Assembly: GCA_018883165.1 (NCBI GenBank)
Contig: VEQN01000005.1
Location: forward strand, 1 to 52,874
Length of the DNA stretch: 52,874 nucleotides
DNA from: Candidatus Tayloriibacteriota bacterium
Lineage (GTDB): Bacteria; Patescibacteriota; Minisyncoccia; Phycocordibacterales; CAIZLB01
Direction of reading: 5' to 3'
The position numbers were made by a program, and so were the translations under genes. This document shows, one piece after another, positions 7,336 to 39,632 of the stretch (the first letter of the stretch is position 1; every line of letters starts with the position of its first letter). The notes below the pieces were generated by a model, which made no database searches, was not told where the DNA came from, and saw only the letters and a program-made list of their open reading frames with translations.

Positions 7336-10300
7336 TCAAACCTTAAGATATACAAACATTTTATATATCTTAAAGAACCCTGGATACAAGAACGACGCAT
7401 CCTTGAGACTCATCCCTCCTCGATAGTTTTTATATGACTTTTCGATCTCTTTCACAATTGAATCTAAACTAACTTGTATAGATTTAGAATATGCTTTTGA
7501 ATTACTTATCGGATATGCATCAATCCTTCTGAGAATTGCATTTATTTTTAACACATACCTATCAGCAAACTTTTTAGTAACAATCCCCGATTGAATTCGT
7601 GTTCGCAGTGCACGAAGTTCTACTTTAATATCATTAATGGAATATTCTTCAACGGCAATATCTGAGTATGTAGATGTTGCAACTATTGGGATTGAAGCTG
7701 CATCGACCACACCATCACCCTCATAATCTTTTTCTAAAGTAATCGTTGTTGTTGCATTGTCATTAGTTATGTTAATCGTACTTACACTTTGCGGAGTTGT
7801 AGCATCTATATCAAAGATGTATGCCGGCTGACTGTATGACGACTTATACGTACCATCTCTAAAATCTACCCTATCAATCATAAATGATTCTGTTCCTAGG
7901 GACTTTGAAGAAAAGTTAATCTTTCTTGGTTTTACGGGTAATAGTATTATTTTTTCTGAATTTGTATTTTCATACGCTACCCCTTTCATATTACTCGAAT
8001 GCACATACCCTTCTTTCACTTGATAGTCTTCGACAACCCCAATATCTGTTTCCACCTTAACTTTTCCATCCCCCTGTATCTTCACTCTCCAATATGATGT
8101 AACTTCAAGAGGAGCATCTACCTGTTGATTGCTTGGAACTACCGTTACATATGGTGCCGCGGAAAACTTCAGGTCTCTGCCAAATACAATGTCATTTAGT
8201 ATCGTTAGTACAGGTTCTGTTGATGCAAGATTTACATGCTCAATTCTGTTCGGATGTATATTGTTGTATTTGAAAACATCAATCAATATTGTCCTACCAG
8301 CTCGCTTCGAGATATCACCTACAGGTACGACACCATCACCATTTTTTGTATACATTGAATTACGGCTCATTGCACAATATGCATCTGCCGAGACGTTCTG
8401 TTGAACCAGACCCACTCCAAGTGACAACTCCGCCTGCGGACCGCATTTTTCTATATACTCAATTCCATTTTGAGTAAGTACATTTGTACTCAGTATATGT
8501 GTAATTTTTCCAGATAAAGTATCACTAATCGAGTACCTAATATCTTTTACCTTGTCATATACAATTTTGTTACCGATAGCAGCAGTACGGACATCCACAT
8601 CTGAAAACGGAATTTTTCTATCTTTAAACACACCGGTTCTAAATATGAAATCTAACATCATATCTTTTGTACGCAGATGCACAGGGTCTTTGTTTTTGGT
8701 ATGTATTTCAATTCCGGAAGACATTTGATCTAAGGTTATTCTCACAAGTTCATTTACTGATTTAATATTCTTTGAGAACGACCTTGCTGTTGATTGTGTA
8801 AGAATCGCACCATGCAATATTGATTGCCCATCACCATGAAGTACTGATGATACAGATGAAAAAGACCCTTGCTCTGGAGTACCAATTAATACTACAGATT
8901 CGATAAGGTGCCCAAGACCCTCTGACTCTAAATATGATGCAAACTTTTTTGCAACAATACCACCGAAGCTATGACCGACAAGTATCACCTTACCAGTTTT
9001 TGATTTTAAAGCTTTTTCCTTAATCTCTTTAGTCCATATTTTCCTATTCATTAAAACTACTTCATCGGAAGAATATCGCCAGTCATACACTATCACACCC
9101 CAATCCTGTATCATTCTTCTGTTTTTTAACCCGACAAGATATTCTTCCATACCCTTGTACACATCAATATCTAAAAATCCAAGACCAATAGATGATCCAA
9201 TATTTGTTCTAGAGACCATATCTTTAGGATATATAGATTTAGATATAGGTTCTCCGCTCGTATTGAAATACAACTTCTTCACATCAGCATCTCTATTTGG
9301 TTCCCATAACTGATTCTCGAACATGTATCCCCTTGTATATAACCTACTACCCTGAAGACCAGGGAAGAAAAACATTGAGGAACAACATTTCTTAATGTTT
9401 GGCTTTTCGAGAAGCCAAGGCATAACATTAAGTGAACCATCCGCCGAGTCACCTACTCCTTGGATATTTTGAAGCGGAAATCTAGGGCCAGTACCACTAC
9501 CCCACCAATTGTCCCTAGCTTCAACAAATCCACCCTCTGCATATGTTGCGTATCCTATGTGCTCCTCGAAGATATTTCCTACAACAGTTGAAGACGCTGC
9601 ATATGCTTCGAATCCAATACGATTATTCAAAAAAGTATTTGCACTTAAGAAGTTCTCAGCATGTTCGAATGTTGAAATACCAGTTTTTAGTCTTGAGAAA
9701 CTATTGCCACTGAACGTTGTGTATACTTTGTTAAACACTTGTACACCAATTGAACTTGGTGAATCAACAAACTCTGAATTCTCAACAGTGACTACACCAT
9801 TTTCATACGATGACACAACCGCCACCGTCATGTTATTGCGGAATACTGTATCTGATATATACATATTCGAATACTTAAATGATTCAATTACAGATGTAGC
9901 AGTAATGTTGGTTAATGTCACATTTTGTACTGTAAGCTCAGAATGATTCCAAGATGAGATTAAAGCACCACTAGCGTTACAAGTATCAAATACGCTATTT
10001 GATATGATTATCTTTGAATTATCCCATCCATATATCTTTGGACAATCTCCATTTGCCTGTATACCAGATACAACCAAACTGCCACCCATTGTGTATATAC
10101 CGGAGAAAGAATGTCCTGACAGAATACGAGCGCTTGTTCCCACTATCTCCAACTCCCCATATACATATATAGATCCACTATTGAATTGTAACCCTTTCTC
10201 GCCAACTTGAATTACAAGTTTCAAACCCTTAGGTATTGTCAGGTTTCCATTAATCTCATGCGTTGATTGATATTTCCATACTTCATTCGAAGACAGAGTC

Positions 10301-10383
10301 CGATCACCAATCACAGATTCAGCGCTGATGTATGACGGTACAAGTATCCATGCGTACAGTGCAAAAAGAAAAACACATTTCAT
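7336..10383 (-). CDS. Secreted parallel beta-helix protein with C-terminal LCAT-like alpha/beta hydrolase domain
   Basis: Signal peptide; N-terminal N-rich beta-helix-like repeats; PGLQGSRL, VILVGHSFGG nucleophile elbow, NGDGVVPVGD and a late His (IEHVNLAS) as in LCAT-family hydrolases. Confidence 0.75.
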   Translation of the reverse strand: MKCVFLFALYAWILVPSYISAESVIGDRTLSSNEVWKYQSTHEINGNLTIPKGLKLVIQVGEKGLQFNSGSIYVYGELEIVGTSARILSGHSFSGIYTMGGSLVVSGIQANGDCPKIYGWDNSKIIISNSVFDTCNASGALISSWNHSELTVQNVTLTNITATSVIESFKYSNMYISDTVFRNNMTVAVVSSYENGVVTVENSEFVDSPSSIGVQVFNKVYTTFSGNSFSRLKTGISTFEHAENFLSANTFLNNRIGFEAYAASSTVVGNIFEEHIGYATYAEGGFVEARDNWWGSGTGPRFPLQNIQGVGDSADGSLNVMPWLLEKPNIKKCCSSMFFFPGLQGSRLYTRGYMFENQLWEPNRDADVKKLYFNTSGEPISKSIYPKDMVSRTNIGSSIGLGFLDIDVYKGMEEYLVGLKNRRMIQDWGVIVYDWRYSSDEVVLMNRKIWTKEIKEKALKSKTGKVILVGHSFGGIVAKKFASYLESEGLGHLIESVVLIGTPEQGSFSSVSSVLHGDGQSILHGAILTQSTARSFSKNIKSVNELVRITLDQMSSGIEIHTKNKDPVHLRTKDMMLDFIFRTGVFKDRKIPFSDVDVRTAAIGNKIVYDKVKDIRYSISDTLSGKITHILSTNVLTQNGIEYIEKCGPQAELSLGVGLVQQNVSADAYCAMSRNSMYTKNGDGVVPVGDISKRAGRTILIDVFKYNNIHPNRIEHVNLASTEPVLTILNDIVFGRDLKFSAAPYVTVVPSNQQVDAPLEVTSYWRVKIQGDGKVKVETDIGVVEDYQVKEGYVHSSNMKGVAYENTNSEKIILLPVKPRKINFSSKSLGTESFMIDRVDFRDGTYKSSYSQPAYIFDIDATTPQSVSTINITNDNATTTITLEKDYEGDGVVDAASIPIVATSTYSDIAVEEYSINDIKVELRALRTRIQSGIVTKKFADRYVLKINAILRRIDAYPISNSKAYSKSIQVSLDSIVKEIEKSYKNYRGGMSLKDASFLYPGFFKIYKMFVYLKV

Positions 10384-32177: not shown

Positions 32178-32771
32178 TCACAGGTGACTTTCATGAAGTG
32201 CCCCATCAATACACCCCTGTATATATGTCCTATACTCTCTTATATGAACTAATGTATCTGTCGTAAGTGAGTTAGGCGCTGTCACCAATCCCAAAACCGG
32301 ATCTACGGGGCAATACCCTAACAAGTTCAGTAACTGAACTTGAAAGTACATGTATGTCTCAGATATATATTCAATGACCTTTTGTTTTTCTTGAAAACAA
32401 AAGGATGCGCAGGTATTAACTAGATTGAACACATCAGACACAGGTACATCCTGCGGTGTTAGACGTTTAACAAACAGCAACATCTCAACGCATAACCTTT
32501 TAATTTGAATGGGTAATCTCTTATCATAAAGAGATATCAACTTTTCTGCGTTTGTAAGTCTCCATATTTCCTTCCCCCTTACCAGAGACACCCTAGAGAA
32601 ACTGTAATCCTGGATAGATGCTTTTAATTTAGATGTTGATAGCCTAACTCCTTGTGCAGCTACATATATTAATCCAAGATTGTCCGTAAGCATTAAAAGC
32701 TTTTTACTTGCTTCACCTGTCTGACCACTTTCGATTATATATGCTTTTGTTTGGTAGATGTGATGTGACAT
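32178..32771 (-). CDS. recO: DNA repair protein RecO
   Basis: N-terminal OB-fold pattern (YQTKAYIIESGQTGEASKKLLMLTDNLGLIYVAAQGVRLSTSKLKASIQDYSF) and a helical C-terminus. Confidence 0.8.
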   Translation of the reverse strand: MSHHIYQTKAYIIESGQTGEASKKLLMLTDNLGLIYVAAQGVRLSTSKLKASIQDYSFSRVSLVRGKEIWRLTNAEKLISLYDKRLPIQIKRLCVEMLLFVKRLTPQDVPVSDVFNLVNTCASFCFQEKQKVIEYISETYMYFQVQLLNLLGYCPVDPVLGLVTAPNSLTTDTLVHIREYRTYIQGCIDGALHESHL

Positions 32772-35700
32772 GATACGAATACACCCGGAACTAATTCGAA
32801 CTTTTCACCTGTAAATACATCATCTGTTTCAGCAACCAGATTGAATGAAATTTTCTGCACCGAAGCCTTCTTTGGAAGGTCAGTGTATCCGGTTATGTAT
32901 TTCTCCGCTTGCGAAACATCTGTTGTGGCAACAACCATCTCAATCTCATCTTTAGGTTCAAGATTTGCTTCTTTTCGTTTCTCCTGAACACTTCGTAGAA
33001 TATCACGGAGCACACCCTCAACCTTAAGCTCTTCTGTAACTTCAGTATCGAGTACAATATCTGTTCCACGAACAACAGATTTTACATTCATTTCATCCTT
33101 AACAATCTCTTCCAGTTGCTGAGAAAGGTCGAATTCAGAACCATTGTATGTGAATGCCCTGAGCGGTTGTCTTGCCTTTATTCCCGCCTTAGATCGGAGT
33201 GCAAGACCCATCTCAATCACTTTTCGTGTCTTCGCCATTCCTTCAATTAGCTGAGTGTCTGCTGTTGGCATATGTGGCCACGGAGAGAGATGCACACTTA
33301 CTGCAGTATCAATTTTTGGATCTCGAATTCGTAGATACAAGTATTCTGCAAAGAATGGTGTGATTGGAGCCATGAGCTTTGCAAAAGTAACCAACACATA
33401 CTGAGTTGTCTGAATTGCATGTTCCCTATCAACCATGTCCTCACTCTTGAATCTGTCTCTTGATCGTCTAAGGTACCACGTAGAAAGATCGTCTACAAAT
33501 TCACCAAGACTTCGTGTTGCCTTATCAACGAAGAATCCATCGAGACTTTTCTCAATGATTCCTTTCGTCTCAGAGAGTCTCCCTAATATCCACTGGTCGA
33601 GTACATGAGTACTTGATGGATATGCAACTATTTCTGCTTTTGTTTCAGCAGCATACATGTTATAGAAGGTGTAGACGTTTTCAAGTCTGTTGAACACCTT
33701 CTTGTTTACCTCATCAAGAGCCTTCTCAGAGAATAGCACCTCTTCGGCATGTGATGCTGGAGATGCTGCGAGCATATATCGAAGTGAATCAGCACCATAC
33801 ATATCAAGCGTTGGTTCAAGATCAGGATAGTTTCTCAAACTCTTAGACATCTTTCTACCATCTTCAGCAAGTATGAGTCCTGAAACTGTTACATTCTTGT
33901 ATGGGCTCTTACCAAAAAGTGCCACACCTAATACGAGGAGTGAATAAAACCAACCTCTTGTTTGATCAAGTCCTTCCGCGATGAAATCGGCTGGGAACAG
34001 TTCACTACCATCAACATCAAATGAATGTGTACTCTCGAACGGATAGTGGTTCTGTGCGAAAGGCATAGAACCAGAGTCATACCATACATCAAACACCTCT
34101 CCTACCCGTTTATACACTTCACCTTTTTCATTTTGCCATGTAATACCATCAATATATGGTCGATGGAGATCGAGTTCAAAATCAGGACCATGTGGAAGAT
34201 CTCTGAAATCTACATCATGTATTGACGCTGTTGGATCAGAAATATCTCTCCATTCTGATCGAAGGAAATCTCTTGCTGTTTTTCCAACCGCAGAGGCTGT
34301 TGCTAGTCTCAGTGGCAACCCGTGCGTAATCACAAGAACATGTTCGTCTGTATTCTTTGCATTGATATCATACAAAAGCTCTGTGATCCTCTGTTTTACG
34401 TCAAAGACTGATTCACCGTTTGGAACCCGCTTATATATCTTTTCCTCAAGGGTACTGAAGTATGATAATCGCTCACCCCAATCACCACCATCGAAGTCAC
34501 CTCCATTTATCTCTCTTGCCCGTCTATCAAGCACAATGTTTTTTGGATCAATACCTAATACCTCAGCTACAATCTCAGCTGTTTCTCTTGTTCGTCTGAA
34601 GTCAGATGCATAGATTTTTGTAATCTTGTTAGGAAGATTCTTTAGCTTCTCTGCTGATGCAAGAACCTCTGCTCTACCTTTTGCTGTAAGGCCATACAAG
34701 TTAAGACCTTTCTCAGTGGAATTAATGATGTTTTTAACATTTGTCTCACATTCACCATGTCTCATCAGTGTAAAATGATTTTTCTTTTGGATATGTTTTT
34801 TTAACTCTTCAACACTTCCAATGAAAACCTTCTCCCCAGTCGTTTGGTTTTTCCATACTGGGAGTGGGGCTCCCCAATACCTTGATCGTGATACATTCCA
34901 ATCTCGAACATTTTCAAGCCATTCACCGAATCTATTCTCACCGACTTCTTTAGGGATCCAATTAATCTTTTTGTTTTCTTCAATTAATTTTTCCTGAAGA
35001 TCTGTGACCCGAACAAACCATGATGAGTTTGGATAATTCAAAAGAGGAGTTTCACATCTCCAACAATGTGGGTATGAGTGAGTAATTTTTTCTTTCGCAA
35101 AAAGAAGTGGGTTACCTGCCGAATTAGTAGTATGTGCCAAGAGCTTAATTGCCTCAATATCAGTCTTTTGATGATCTTCTTTAGGCTTTGCAGGAAGACC
35201 CGAAAGCACTCCGTTACCTTCCTTAATCACACCGTCTGGATGTACATGCACAATGAGTGGAATGTTGTGTTTTCGAGCAAGTGTCACGTCATCGCTACCA
35301 AACGCTGCGATATGGACAATACCCGTACCATCCTCTGCAGTTACAAAATCTGCTGCATATACTTTCCAGAGTGCATCTCGCTTAGACTCCCCATCTTCAT
35401 TCAATGTTCCACTGTTTGTATAGAAATTAAAGGGTGGAATATATGAGGTACCAACAAAATCTTTTCCAAGCTTTGAATCAAGAACAGGAGCATTTTCTGG
35501 GAGAATTTTTTTCTCTGTGAGAGGTGCAACGAGCGCAGAAGCAAGCCAAACCTTTCCGTTTGGTGTATCTAGGAGTGAATATTCAAGTTCTGGAGAAACA
35601 GCAAGTGCCATGTTACCCGGCAGCGTCCAAGGTGTTGTTGTCCATGCAAGAAAGTTTGTACCTGAACCATCTTTTAACTCAAAGAGTGTATATGCTGAAA

Positions 35701-36325
35701 GATCTGGAATATCTTTGTACCCCTGCCCCACTTCAAAGTTAGACAGAGTAGTCTGGCATCGAGGACAATAGTGCATGGCCTGATTAGCTTCATACACCAA
35801 TCCTTTCTTGTTTAATTCAGAGAAAGACCACCATACTGATTCAGTGTAGCTTGAATCCATTGTATGATATCCACTTTCCATATCAACCCATCGTCCAAGC
35901 TTCTCTACAATTCGTTTCCAATCTGTGTCATACCGAAACACACTGTCTTTAGCAGCTTTGTTAAACTTTTCAATTCCATATTCTTCAATTGCTTTTTTGT
36001 CTTTCAAGCCTAATTCCTTCTCAATGAGGTTTTCGATTGGAAGACCGTGACAGTCCCACCCCCACTTTCTCTTCACTCTGTACCCCTGCATGGTCTTGTA
36101 TCGAGGAATGATGTCTTTGATTGTTGAAGGGAGCATGTGCCCATAGTGTGGAAGACCAGTAGCATATGGTGGACCATCAAAAAATACATAGTTACCCTTT
36201 GGAGCATCTTTTGTGACAGAGGCTTCAAAAATACGTTGCTCTTTCCAGAAACGTCGAATTGACTCCTCACGAACCTGAGGAGTAACTGGACCTTGTGTAT
36301 TTTTTGAATCTGTTTCTGAAGACAT
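32735..36325 (-). CDS. ileS: Isoleucyl-tRNA synthetase (HYGH/IleS2-like) with an inserted histidine-phosphatase domain
   Basis: PPYATGLPHYGHMLPS, GWDCHGLPIE, GRKMSKSLRNYPDL. Internal residues ~512-705 carry LMRHGECETN, SDFRRTRETAE, REINGGDFDGG and VITHG. Confidence 0.96.
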   Translation of the reverse strand: MSSETDSKNTQGPVTPQVREESIRRFWKEQRIFEASVTKDAPKGNYVFFDGPPYATGLPHYGHMLPSTIKDIIPRYKTMQGYRVKRKWGWDCHGLPIENLIEKELGLKDKKAIEEYGIEKFNKAAKDSVFRYDTDWKRIVEKLGRWVDMESGYHTMDSSYTESVWWSFSELNKKGLVYEANQAMHYCPRCQTTLSNFEVGQGYKDIPDLSAYTLFELKDGSGTNFLAWTTTPWTLPGNMALAVSPELEYSLLDTPNGKVWLASALVAPLTEKKILPENAPVLDSKLGKDFVGTSYIPPFNFYTNSGTLNEDGESKRDALWKVYAADFVTAEDGTGIVHIAAFGSDDVTLARKHNIPLIVHVHPDGVIKEGNGVLSGLPAKPKEDHQKTDIEAIKLLAHTTNSAGNPLLFAKEKITHSYPHCWRCETPLLNYPNSSWFVRVTDLQEKLIEENKKINWIPKEVGENRFGEWLENVRDWNVSRSRYWGAPLPVWKNQTTGEKVFIGSVEELKKHIQKKNHFTLMRHGECETNVKNIINSTEKGLNLYGLTAKGRAEVLASAEKLKNLPNKITKIYASDFRRTRETAEIVAEVLGIDPKNIVLDRRAREINGGDFDGGDWGERLSYFSTLEEKIYKRVPNGESVFDVKQRITELLYDINAKNTDEHVLVITHGLPLRLATASAVGKTARDFLRSEWRDISDPTASIHDVDFRDLPHGPDFELDLHRPYIDGITWQNEKGEVYKRVGEVFDVWYDSGSMPFAQNHYPFESTHSFDVDGSELFPADFIAEGLDQTRGWFYSLLVLGVALFGKSPYKNVTVSGLILAEDGRKMSKSLRNYPDLEPTLDMYGADSLRYMLAASPASHAEEVLFSEKALDEVNKKVFNRLENVYTFYNMYAAETKAEIVAYPSSTHVLDQWILGRLSETKGIIEKSLDGFFVDKATRSLGEFVDDLSTWYLRRSRDRFKSEDMVDREHAIQTTQYVLVTFAKLMAPITPFFAEYLYLRIRDPKIDTAVSVHLSPWPHMPTADTQLIEGMAKTRKVIEMGLALRSKAGIKARQPLRAFTYNGSEFDLSQQLEEIVKDEMNVKSVVRGTDIVLDTEVTEELKVEGVLRDILRSVQEKRKEANLEPKDEIEMVVATTDVSQAEKYITGYTDLPKKASVQKISFNLVAETDDVFTGEKFELVPGVFVSCHITSTKQKHI

Positions 36326-36764: not shown

Positions 36765-37763
36765 TTACATTTCAACATGAGAATATTTTTTCTTCCCGAT
36801 TCTTCCCTTCATCTTGCAACTTTCTCCACAAAATACGAGAGGTACCGCATCGTGTGCATTTCCCGCTTTGGCGGCACACTGATCGCATACAAGCATTTTT
36901 GAATGACACTCATCGTTGGCACAATTTTCAAATCTTTCTGTTGTCGTTCCACACAAATCACACTTTCCGATTACTTCTCTCTTGTCTGTAAATGCCATCG
37001 TATCTCGGTTATCAAATACAAAGAGTGCTCCCAGGAAATCCTCTCCTGGATATTTTTCCATGTATGTATGCATACCTCCATCAAGCTGATATACATTATC
37101 AAATCCATTCTCCATTAAAAAACCTGACGCCTTTTCACACCGAATACCTCCAGTACATACCGTAAGGATCTTTTTACCTTCTTTTGATGCTTTCTTAACT
37201 TCTTCAAGTGCTGGGAGAACTTGTGGCAACTCTCTAAAGTTGTTCATCTTCGGATTGATTGATCCTTTAAAATGCCCGACTTTAAATTCATAGTCATTTC
37301 GCATATCTACGATGAGAAAATCCTCACCATTCTCATACCATGCTTTAAGTTCTTCTGGTTTCAAATGCACACCTGTTGTTTTGTTTGGATCAATATCAGT
37401 CACTACAACTCCCCCGTCTTTAGCAATTGGCGCATTCTTCATCTTGAGTGCAACAACTTCCTCTCTAACTTTAACTTTAAGTTTAGGAAAAGAACTTCCA
37501 GTGCCAGGACTTCTCTTAAAGACAACGTCACTAAAGTTTCCAAATGTCCCCTCTGAACCATCCTGAAGATGCATAAGTTTTGTATATTCCAAAATATCTT
37601 CTTTCTTTCCTTCGAGAGTTCCATTTATTCCCTCTTGTGCGATGAGCACACGCCCTTTGAGATTAAGGTTTGTACAGATTGTCTTGTGCCAATTCACAAA
37701 ACCCACAGGATCTTGTACTGGGGTATATTTGTAATATAGGATGATTTCGTATGTTGGTGTCAT
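36765..37763 (-). CDS. trhO: tRNA uridine(34) hydroxylase / rhodanese-domain protein (YceA/TrhO)
   Basis: LKGRVLIAQEGINGTLEG, rhodanese loop CTGGIRCEKASGFL, C-terminal Cys-rich zinc-like segment. Confidence 0.92.
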   Translation of the reverse strand: MTPTYEIILYYKYTPVQDPVGFVNWHKTICTNLNLKGRVLIAQEGINGTLEGKKEDILEYTKLMHLQDGSEGTFGNFSDVVFKRSPGTGSSFPKLKVKVREEVVALKMKNAPIAKDGGVVVTDIDPNKTTGVHLKPEELKAWYENGEDFLIVDMRNDYEFKVGHFKGSINPKMNNFRELPQVLPALEEVKKASKEGKKILTVCTGGIRCEKASGFLMENGFDNVYQLDGGMHTYMEKYPGEDFLGALFVFDNRDTMAFTDKREVIGKCDLCGTTTERFENCANDECHSKMLVCDQCAAKAGNAHDAVPLVFCGESCKMKGRIGKKKYSHVEM

Positions 37764-37781: not shown

Positions 37782-39632
37782 TCACATCTTTAATGGTACT
37801 TGAATACCTAAGACTTTGAGGCCATTTTTAAGGACAATATGGAATGCTCGTACCACCGCTACTTTATATCTTGATTCAAAATCATCAATTTGGACAATTG
37901 GAACTGATGCATAGAATGAATTAAATGCAGCAGCTAACTCCATCAGGTATGTTGCAACTACATGAGGAGACTCTTCGCTTTGTGCCTTTTCAAGAGTTTC
38001 CGGGAATCGCACCAACAAGTTCTCAAGTCTTCCAAGTTTAGCTGATGTCTCGGATGGTATTACTGAGATATCAGACACATCAACCATTTCAATGATTCCT
38101 TCTCTTTGTGCCTTATCGAGCACAGACTTTGCTCGTACACATGAATATTGGAGATATGGTCCAGAATCACCTTCAAATGACAATGACTTCTCAGGGTCAA
38201 ATACAACATCCTTACCAATTGCTTGTCGAAGTACTGTGTATTTAATTGCAGCAACCGCAATCATTTCTGCTGCTTTTTTCTTGTCTTCATCTGGCATATC
38301 ACGTTCTTTCATTTTCGAAAGAGCAAGATCAATCATTGATGCAATGAGTGATTCACCTGTAATAACATCGCCCGTTCGTGATGACATCTTACCTGTTGTG
38401 AGTCGAAGCATCCCATGAGAAATATGTCTTGCTTTACTTCCAAACTCCGGGAAGAGTTCTCTAAGGATACACAAAGACACTTTGAAGAAATCATCTTGCT
38501 CATTTGCGGTTACAGTAATGCCATCATCATACTGAAACGCGCCGTATTTCATCGGTGCAAGCCCTATCTCCTTCCCGTCATATGTTGGAAGTCCTTGTCT
38601 TGTGATTAAGACTCGAGTATGAAGTCCGTATTTTTCACCTGGAAAAATAACAGCGCCATTACTCTCCTCAAACAATTTCTTACCCTCTGGTACTGTATGT
38701 TCTTTAATTATGTTCAATGCATCTATAGATGCAGCGCTCTCAAAGAAATACCTATCAAACTTCGTACCCAGAAGCTGGTACAATTCTTCAAAACTTTGAA
38801 GACTCCATTCCTTTCCAAGATCATATATCTCGTTAATCTCAGGATCAGTTCTGAAATATATTGCCTTGTTAATATTCTGTACCTCTTCGTCAATTTTCAA
38901 AAACTCTTCACTGTTAGCAAGACCGGCTTCATTAACCTGCCCCGCCTTCTTTGATGCATCCTCTACCTCTTTGTATTTTGTAGCACCAAGAGCATATGCT
39001 TTTCCAAAAAATGCCACCCTCTCTGAAAGAGGCACTGATTCATCAGGGAGAAAACCTATATGATTCCCTTCTTTGTATTCGGGCATCAATCGAAGACCCC
39101 ATATGGTGAGTGCAACATGTCTTCCAACATCTCCTTGGTAACAAAAACGCTTTACCTCAGCTCCTTGCGTTTCTGTAAGTCGAGCAAGAGATTCTCCGAT
39201 CGTGTTGGCCATCAAATGACCAATATGAAATACCTTAAATGGATTAGGGTCTGTATATTCATACAACACTTTCTTCGGAGCACCTCCGATTACCAAGTTT
39301 TTTGACTTTCCAAACAAGTCCCCTTCCTCGAGGATTTTTGCAATTACTTCCTTGGTAGCTTTTCGTGTCACATAGAAGTTAATGAAACCTGGCCCAGCCA
39401 CCTCAATTTTATCTATACTAGAAATCTGTTTTTCCTTCAGTTTGTCTACAAATTCAATGGCAAGTGCAAGCGGTGATTTACTTGCTTTTTTCGCAAGCAC
39501 AAGCGCGATACTTGTGGCAAAATCTCCTTTTGCCATATCAGCTGGTCTTTCAAGTACAATATCTAGATTAAGGTCTTTGTACCCCAACTCTTCTACAACA
39601 GTAGTTAATGCTTGTTTTATAGCGTGTCTCAT
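37782..39632 (-). CDS. argS: Arginyl-tRNA synthetase
   Basis: EYTDPNPFKVFHIGHLMANTIGESLARL, HGMLRLTTGKMSSRTGDVIT, C-terminal DALR domain. Confidence 0.97.
   Translation of the reverse strand: MRHAIKQALTTVVEELGYKDLNLDIVLERPADMAKGDFATSIALVLAKKASKSPLALAIEFVDKLKEKQISSIDKIEVAGPGFINFYVTRKATKEVIAKILEEGDLFGKSKNLVIGGAPKKVLYEYTDPNPFKVFHIGHLMANTIGESLARLTETQGAEVKRFCYQGDVGRHVALTIWGLRLMPEYKEGNHIGFLPDESVPLSERVAFFGKAYALGATKYKEVEDASKKAGQVNEAGLANSEEFLKIDEEVQNINKAIYFRTDPEINEIYDLGKEWSLQSFEELYQLLGTKFDRYFFESAASIDALNIIKEHTVPEGKKLFEESNGAVIFPGEKYGLHTRVLITRQGLPTYDGKEIGLAPMKYGAFQYDDGITVTANEQDDFFKVSLCILRELFPEFGSKARHISHGMLRLTTGKMSSRTGDVITGESLIASMIDLALSKMKERDMPDEDKKKAAEMIAVAAIKYTVLRQAIGKDVVFDPEKSLSFEGDSGPYLQYSCVRAKSVLDKAQREGIIEMVDVSDISVIPSETSAKLGRLENLLVRFPETLEKAQSEESPHVVATYLMELAAAFNSFYASVPIVQIDDFESRYKVAVVRAFHIVLKNGLKVLGIQVPLKM

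Follow-up and report, generated by a model that had tools for sequence, protein, structure and literature searches.

The isoleucyl-tRNA synthetase locus

The window, a 52,874-nucleotide stretch of a contig from a Candidatus Tayloriibacteriota bacterium, contains a gene for isoleucyl-tRNA synthetase (IleRS) whose reading frame houses a complete histidine phosphatase (HP) domain. The gene and its neighbors contain the following features:

32178..32771, minus strand: recO, downstream neighbor of ileS (the ileS-recO order is conserved)
32735..36325, minus strand: ileS, IleRS with internal HP domain, 1196 aa (profile matches, alignment with solved chains)
33839..33853, minus strand: KMSKS motif of IleRS (aa 825-829)
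about 34190..34795, minus strand: inserted segment, about aa 511-712, between ...IGSVEELKK and ...ELDLHRPYIDG (flank alignment, insert-less relatives)
34250..34771, minus strand: His_Phos_1 domain, aa 519-692 (PF00300 match, AlphaFold2 model)
34322..34324, minus strand: catalytic H668 in ITHG (alignment of fused domains)
34511..34513, minus strand: catalytic E605 in REINGG, general acid by homology (alignment of fused domains)
34592..34594, minus strand: catalytic R578 in SDFRRT (alignment of fused domains)
34757..34762, minus strand: catalytic R522-H523 in RHG, H523 being the phospho-acceptor by homology
36137..36148, minus strand: HIGH motif of IleRS (HYGH, aa 60-63)
37782..39632, minus strand: argS, upstream neighbor of ileS

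The ileS frame is unbroken and is matched by the TIGR00392 ileS profile with an E-value of 1.7e-249, the match covering aa 16-517 and the region that follows the insert; its score of 830.5 bits, against a cut-off of 621.4 bits, places it within this family. The host genome (748.6 kb, 99.7% complete) contains no IleRS besides this one. The closest solved chains are those of Priestia megaterium IleRS2 at 685 bits, as against 289 bits for IleRS1, which supports the type-2-like (IleS2-like) scaffold that an earlier note on this DNA had proposed from the sequence. Its scores with the MupB and MupA versions (719 and 662 bits) fall short of the exception cut-off of 1900 bits, placing it outside the mupirocin-resistant class. 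Across 51 IleRS sequences, the residues T229-T231, H338 and D346 of the CP1 region are invariant or nearly so, and N238 is conserved in at least 90%; we take these to be the editing residues, by analogy with the E. coli enzyme. The synthetase core, the editing residues and the predicted fold are all intact. Between argS and ileS, at 36765-37763, lies a gene for a UPF0176/rhodanese protein (TrhO-like), whose family name points to tRNA modification.

Solved IleRS structures align with the window protein over aa 16-512 and resume at aa 712. In same-order relatives without the insert, the corresponding gap spans only about 15 aa, implying an in-frame insertion of about 190-200 aa. The PF00300 His_Phos_1 profile detects aa 519-692 with an E-value of 2.7e-28 (99.4 bits, gathering cut-off 21.7 bits), and profile searches thereby corroborate the earlier reading of a phosphatase embedded in a synthetase. 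The full active-site R-H-R-E-H set of branch-1 HPs (R522, H523, R578, E605 and H668) is present, as that reading had also held. The host genome encodes two other HPs, both free-standing, and a single-protein scan of genome contigs with the insert as query returned no matches.

Phyletic distribution of the fused domain

In a sample of 380 genomes of the phylum queried with the insert protein, HP relatives were recovered in 213. A match lying within a frame of 1120-1260 aa was seen in nearly all sampled genomes of the same order and in about half or more of those of the same class; reading of the fetched single-insert frames verified the IleRS-HP-IleRS order. The lengths of IleRS frames in 188 genomes of the class are bimodal, with modes at about 910-1050 aa and about 1100-1350 aa. 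Named records bearing the insert include Candidatus Taylorbacteria, Adlerbacteria, Pacebacteria, Nomurabacteria, Wolfebacteria, Zambryskibacteria, Magasanikbacteria, Peregrinibacteria and Peribacteria, and the insert-bearing genomes have a single IleRS each. Absence of the insert was established in two of 61 relatives (L086 of G413 and L087 of G419), and it was likewise absent from the few non-patescibacterial IleRS compared (Treponema, Lentisphaerae, Victivallales, Gemmatimonadetes and others). An artefact of a single genome can be rejected given this recurrence across the order, the class and other patescibacterial lineages. The earlier note was right about the insert; one correction to it is that the feature is family-wide in Patescibacteria and not confined to one odd protein. 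The phylum-wide spread, the ValRS and tandem versions and the neighboring free gene described below go beyond what that note contained.

Insertion sites and copy number

The positions of cysteines in relatives place the main insertion site in the loop that links the two knuckles of a zinc-ribbon module. Most single-insert IleRS retain these cysteines (41 of 64, counting the 1+2 pattern), while the family to which the window protein belongs has lost them. Tandem double HP domains occur at this site (family f83, L067-L069, L072, L073, L096, L097 and L141). A second site, following the segment ...WFESGxMPYxxxHYP..., is occupied in the IleRS L071 and in the valyl-tRNA synthetases (ValRS) L095 and L099, and a third, between the catalytic core and the anticodon domain, in L070, L071 and L091. 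At least three insertion sites can hence be distinguished, with some lineages carrying two or three HP copies; in L071:2176-6882 (G243), a 1569-aa IleRS carries three HP domains at three separate places. The sister enzyme ValRS has an HP domain at the equivalent loop in L075-L079, L085 and L092. As HP trees do not group the tandem copies as sisters, the domain entered IleRS and ValRS on several occasions.

Other insertions and fusions were also encountered. A 1275-aa ValRS (L083:1333-5157, G229) contains a HAD_2 domain in the CP1 region and a PF06821 serine hydrolase in addition to an HP insert, and elsewhere in the phylum HP domains are fused to an MFS transporter (L081:2476-4317, minus strand, G329) and to a VTT/DedA-like protein (L082:2987-4369, G293).

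These patterns bear on a reading under which the domain is a hosted metabolic enzyme, namely a neighboring general phosphatase gene that was caught in a permissive loop, acts on a substrate unrelated to charging and is retained only through stable expression with an essential gene. The evident tolerance of the zinc-ribbon loop for inserts, the HAD and serine hydrolase inserts of the above ValRS, and the transporter and VTT fusions are all compatible with such a passenger. Nevertheless, we consider it unlikely, given that the domain has paired repeatedly and independently with IleRS and its sister ValRS, and that it is coupled to ileS in operons of relatives (see below). Two roles are also excluded as sole functions: that of phosphoglycerate mutase by an iPGM homologue in the host genome, and that of pyrophosphatase by a gene of the DHHA2 (family II PPase) type, family I and membrane pyrophosphatases having been sought in this genome and not found.

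Free-standing HP genes linked to ileS

Several insert-less relatives show the gene order argS-HP-ileS. At least seven of the 27 insert-less loci of the class have a free HP gene upstream of ileS, a lower bound given the little upstream sequence available in some of them; the seven loci come from four families and are hence not independent. The free HP directly adjoins ileS in five of them (L127, L147, L170, L171 and L178), and is separated from it by one HD-domain gene in L148 and by two genes in L173. The intervening HD_4 gene (L148:2045-2548, G332) might encode a nucleotide or tRNA-end hydrolase. A comparable linkage is seen in Candidatus Staskawiczbacteria (L228, L230 and, across one intervening gene, L232) and in L248. 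The stop codon of the HP gene and the start codon of ileS overlap by 4 bp as ATGA in no fewer than three cases (L171, L230 and L248). Nine of 11 ileS-linked free HPs group with the fused HPs in a single clade (ultrafast bootstrap 98, SH-aLRT 92). In the majority of insert-less genomes no adjacent HP was seen at the ileS locus.

Sequence conservation and selection

The R-H-R-E-H set is complete in 110 of 111 HP domains of IleRS and in 10 of 12 of those of ValRS, and the R and H of the RHG motif (R522 and H523 in the window protein) are invariant in all fused domains. The two defective ValRS versions are L079, which has lost the second His, and L085, with a Ser at the acid position. Loss of the catalytic residues in related lineages, which the earlier note named as evidence against activity, is thus not the trend among IleRS. 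The inserted HP of L202:5013-8264 (Zambryskibacteria) is about 30 aa shorter in the region of the conserved GE motif, with all five catalytic residues still in place.

Purifying selection acts on the domain. By the Nei-Gojobori method, three pairs with unsaturated dS give the insert a dN/dS of 0.06-0.13, compared to 0.06-0.08 for the core. In the pair L124/L125 (G163, G307) the insert has a dN/dS of 0.38 and an HP identity of 45% versus 76% for the core, which possibly reflects replacement of the insert; synonymous sites were saturated in the remaining pairs. The HP domain evolves faster than the synthetase core. Mapping of its presence and absence on the IleRS core tree requires about 15 changes, a count that includes L074, which was scored as absent due to a split ORF and bears an HP in its second half. 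This number of changes implies that lineages can do without the insert on long timescales. This patchy distribution and the faster evolution would fit a degenerate insert that serves in binding or as a spacer only. The persistence of the whole catalytic set in all but one of the IleRS domains, at a mean column identity of only 41%, makes such a non-catalytic role very improbable.

Predicted structure and relationship to known systems

An AlphaFold2 model of the full IleRS-HP protein, built with 51 sequences, has a pLDDT of 90.5 and a pTM of 0.85; the HP domain within it reaches a pLDDT of about 90-98 over most of its length, and 92.3 when modeled alone. The model of the synthetase core matches T. 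thermophilus IleRS (PDB: 1ile) with a target-normalised TM of 0.93 and P. megaterium IleRS2 (PDB: 8c8v) with one of 0.84. The window protein shares with type-2 IleRS the full core, the HIGH and KMSKS motifs, the CP1 editing residues, and the anticodon and C-terminal domains, but is distinguished from them by the approximately 200-aa phosphatase in the zinc-ribbon loop.

The predicted HP fold matches solved HPs with a Foldseek probability of 1.00 and TM values of mostly 0.7-0.8, the nearest being Rv2419c (PDB: 4pz9), PspA-type (PDB: 4ij6), TIGAR, 9mmh and PhoE (PDB: 1h2e). The best sequence match of the insert is to PhoE (E 3e-10). It shares the fold and the R-H-R-E-H set with PhoE (PDB: 1h2e/1ebb), the phosphoserine phosphatase PspA (PDB: 4ij5), Rv2419c and CobC, but differs in its identity of only 20-28% to these and in its position inside a synthetase. 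Its scores lie far below the cut-offs of all HP equivalogs (PhoE/PspA, CobC, GpmA/GpmB and SixA), the best being CobC with 71 versus 162.9 bits, and hence the substrate of a known HP cannot be transferred to it. Two NCBIfam models describe partly comparable architectures. NF040702 (ileS_w_GNAT) likewise combines an IleRS with an extra enzyme domain, in that case an acetyltransferase (window protein 277 bits, cut-off 1999), and NF005567 joins an HP to a different nucleic-acid enzyme, RNase H (61 bits, cut-off 326).

Functional considerations

The above features suggest that the insert is probably a working PhoE/CobC-like phosphatase functionally coupled to IleRS; both the activity and the coupling are what we infer from them. 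The HP would be held on an essential enzyme via the zinc-ribbon loop beside the catalytic core, and would employ a covalent phospho-histidine mechanism in which H523 takes the phosphate and E605 protonates the leaving group. Its target might be a small phosphorylated compound or the end of a macromolecule, either encountered at the synthetase or produced close to it. In the relatives with the argS-HP-ileS order the same enzyme would act as a separate, translationally coupled protein.

Among the potential substrates, a nucleotide or a reaction by-product is a tentative candidate. Another phospho-metabolite, a phosphorylated tRNA end, or a phosphorylated protein, the synthetase itself included, are each somewhat less probable, and a domain without any substrate is less so still. 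AMP and PPi are products of every synthetase, and the confinement of the HP to IleRS and ValRS would argue against their simple removal. Compensation for a lost editing domain is rejected given the intact native CP1 residues, and the proofreading role that the earlier note had floated is likewise disfavored, as a replacement, by these residues.

A more specific proposal is that phosphate or pyrophosphate on the 3' CCA of IleRS-bound tRNA, left there by RNases or toxSAS-type toxins, is taken off by the HP, thereby enabling charging. Pyrophosphorylation of tRNA CCA ends by toxSAS enzymes is reported (PMC11559606, PMC11782079), and the HD_4 gene between the free HP and ileS in L148 and the RNase H-HP fusion modeled by NF005567 are in keeping with such a role. 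Against this, the reported targets of FaRel2 are tRNA-Gly and tRNA-Thr (PMC11559606), and not tRNA-Ile or tRNA-Val. Moreover, the closest folds are small-molecule phosphatases, with no RNA-directed HP among them. Hence, we regard this proposal as rather improbable.

A comparably low likelihood attaches to self-regulation, wherein the HP would undo phosphorylation of a partner or of the synthetase itself, for instance close to KMSKS. The tether would provide a high local concentration, any of the several insertion sites around the core would suit this purpose, and HPs acting on phospho-proteins exist, such as SixA and STS-1; yet the insert scores only 25.5 bits with the SixA profile (cut-off 74.5 bits), and neither a kinase nor a phospho-site was identified.

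Returning to a phosphatase coupled to the synthetase, it is a serious possibility, if short of an even one, that the domain represents an unrecognized substrate-specific phosphatase function tied to the charging of tRNA with isoleucine, and also valine, in Patescibacteria, which was acquired repeatedly as a neighbor or as a domain. Such a function might, for example, be the repair of phosphorylated tRNA ends or the clearing of a phosphorylated inhibitor or regulator of IleRS and ValRS.

Enzyme domains inserted in a synthetase are a known kind of architecture, and NCBIfam has one other IleRS with an extra enzyme domain, the IleRS-GNAT; the HP version of it is likely to be new, and is unusually broad in its distribution. 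No description of an IleRS-HP fusion was found in the open-access library searched, consistent with the earlier note, to whose author no characterized synthetase with an internal phosphatase of this type was known. IleRS is essential to every cell. That a large part of one phylum retains a phosphatase with a full catalytic set within this enzyme or next to it suggests a chemical step, hitherto unrecognized, in the charging of tRNA or in its control. The system is directly testable through mutation of one catalytic His and through comparison with the two-protein version that occurs naturally. Elsewhere in the window, the product of 7336-10383 (1015 aa) combines an LCAT-like lipase domain with a beta-helix.
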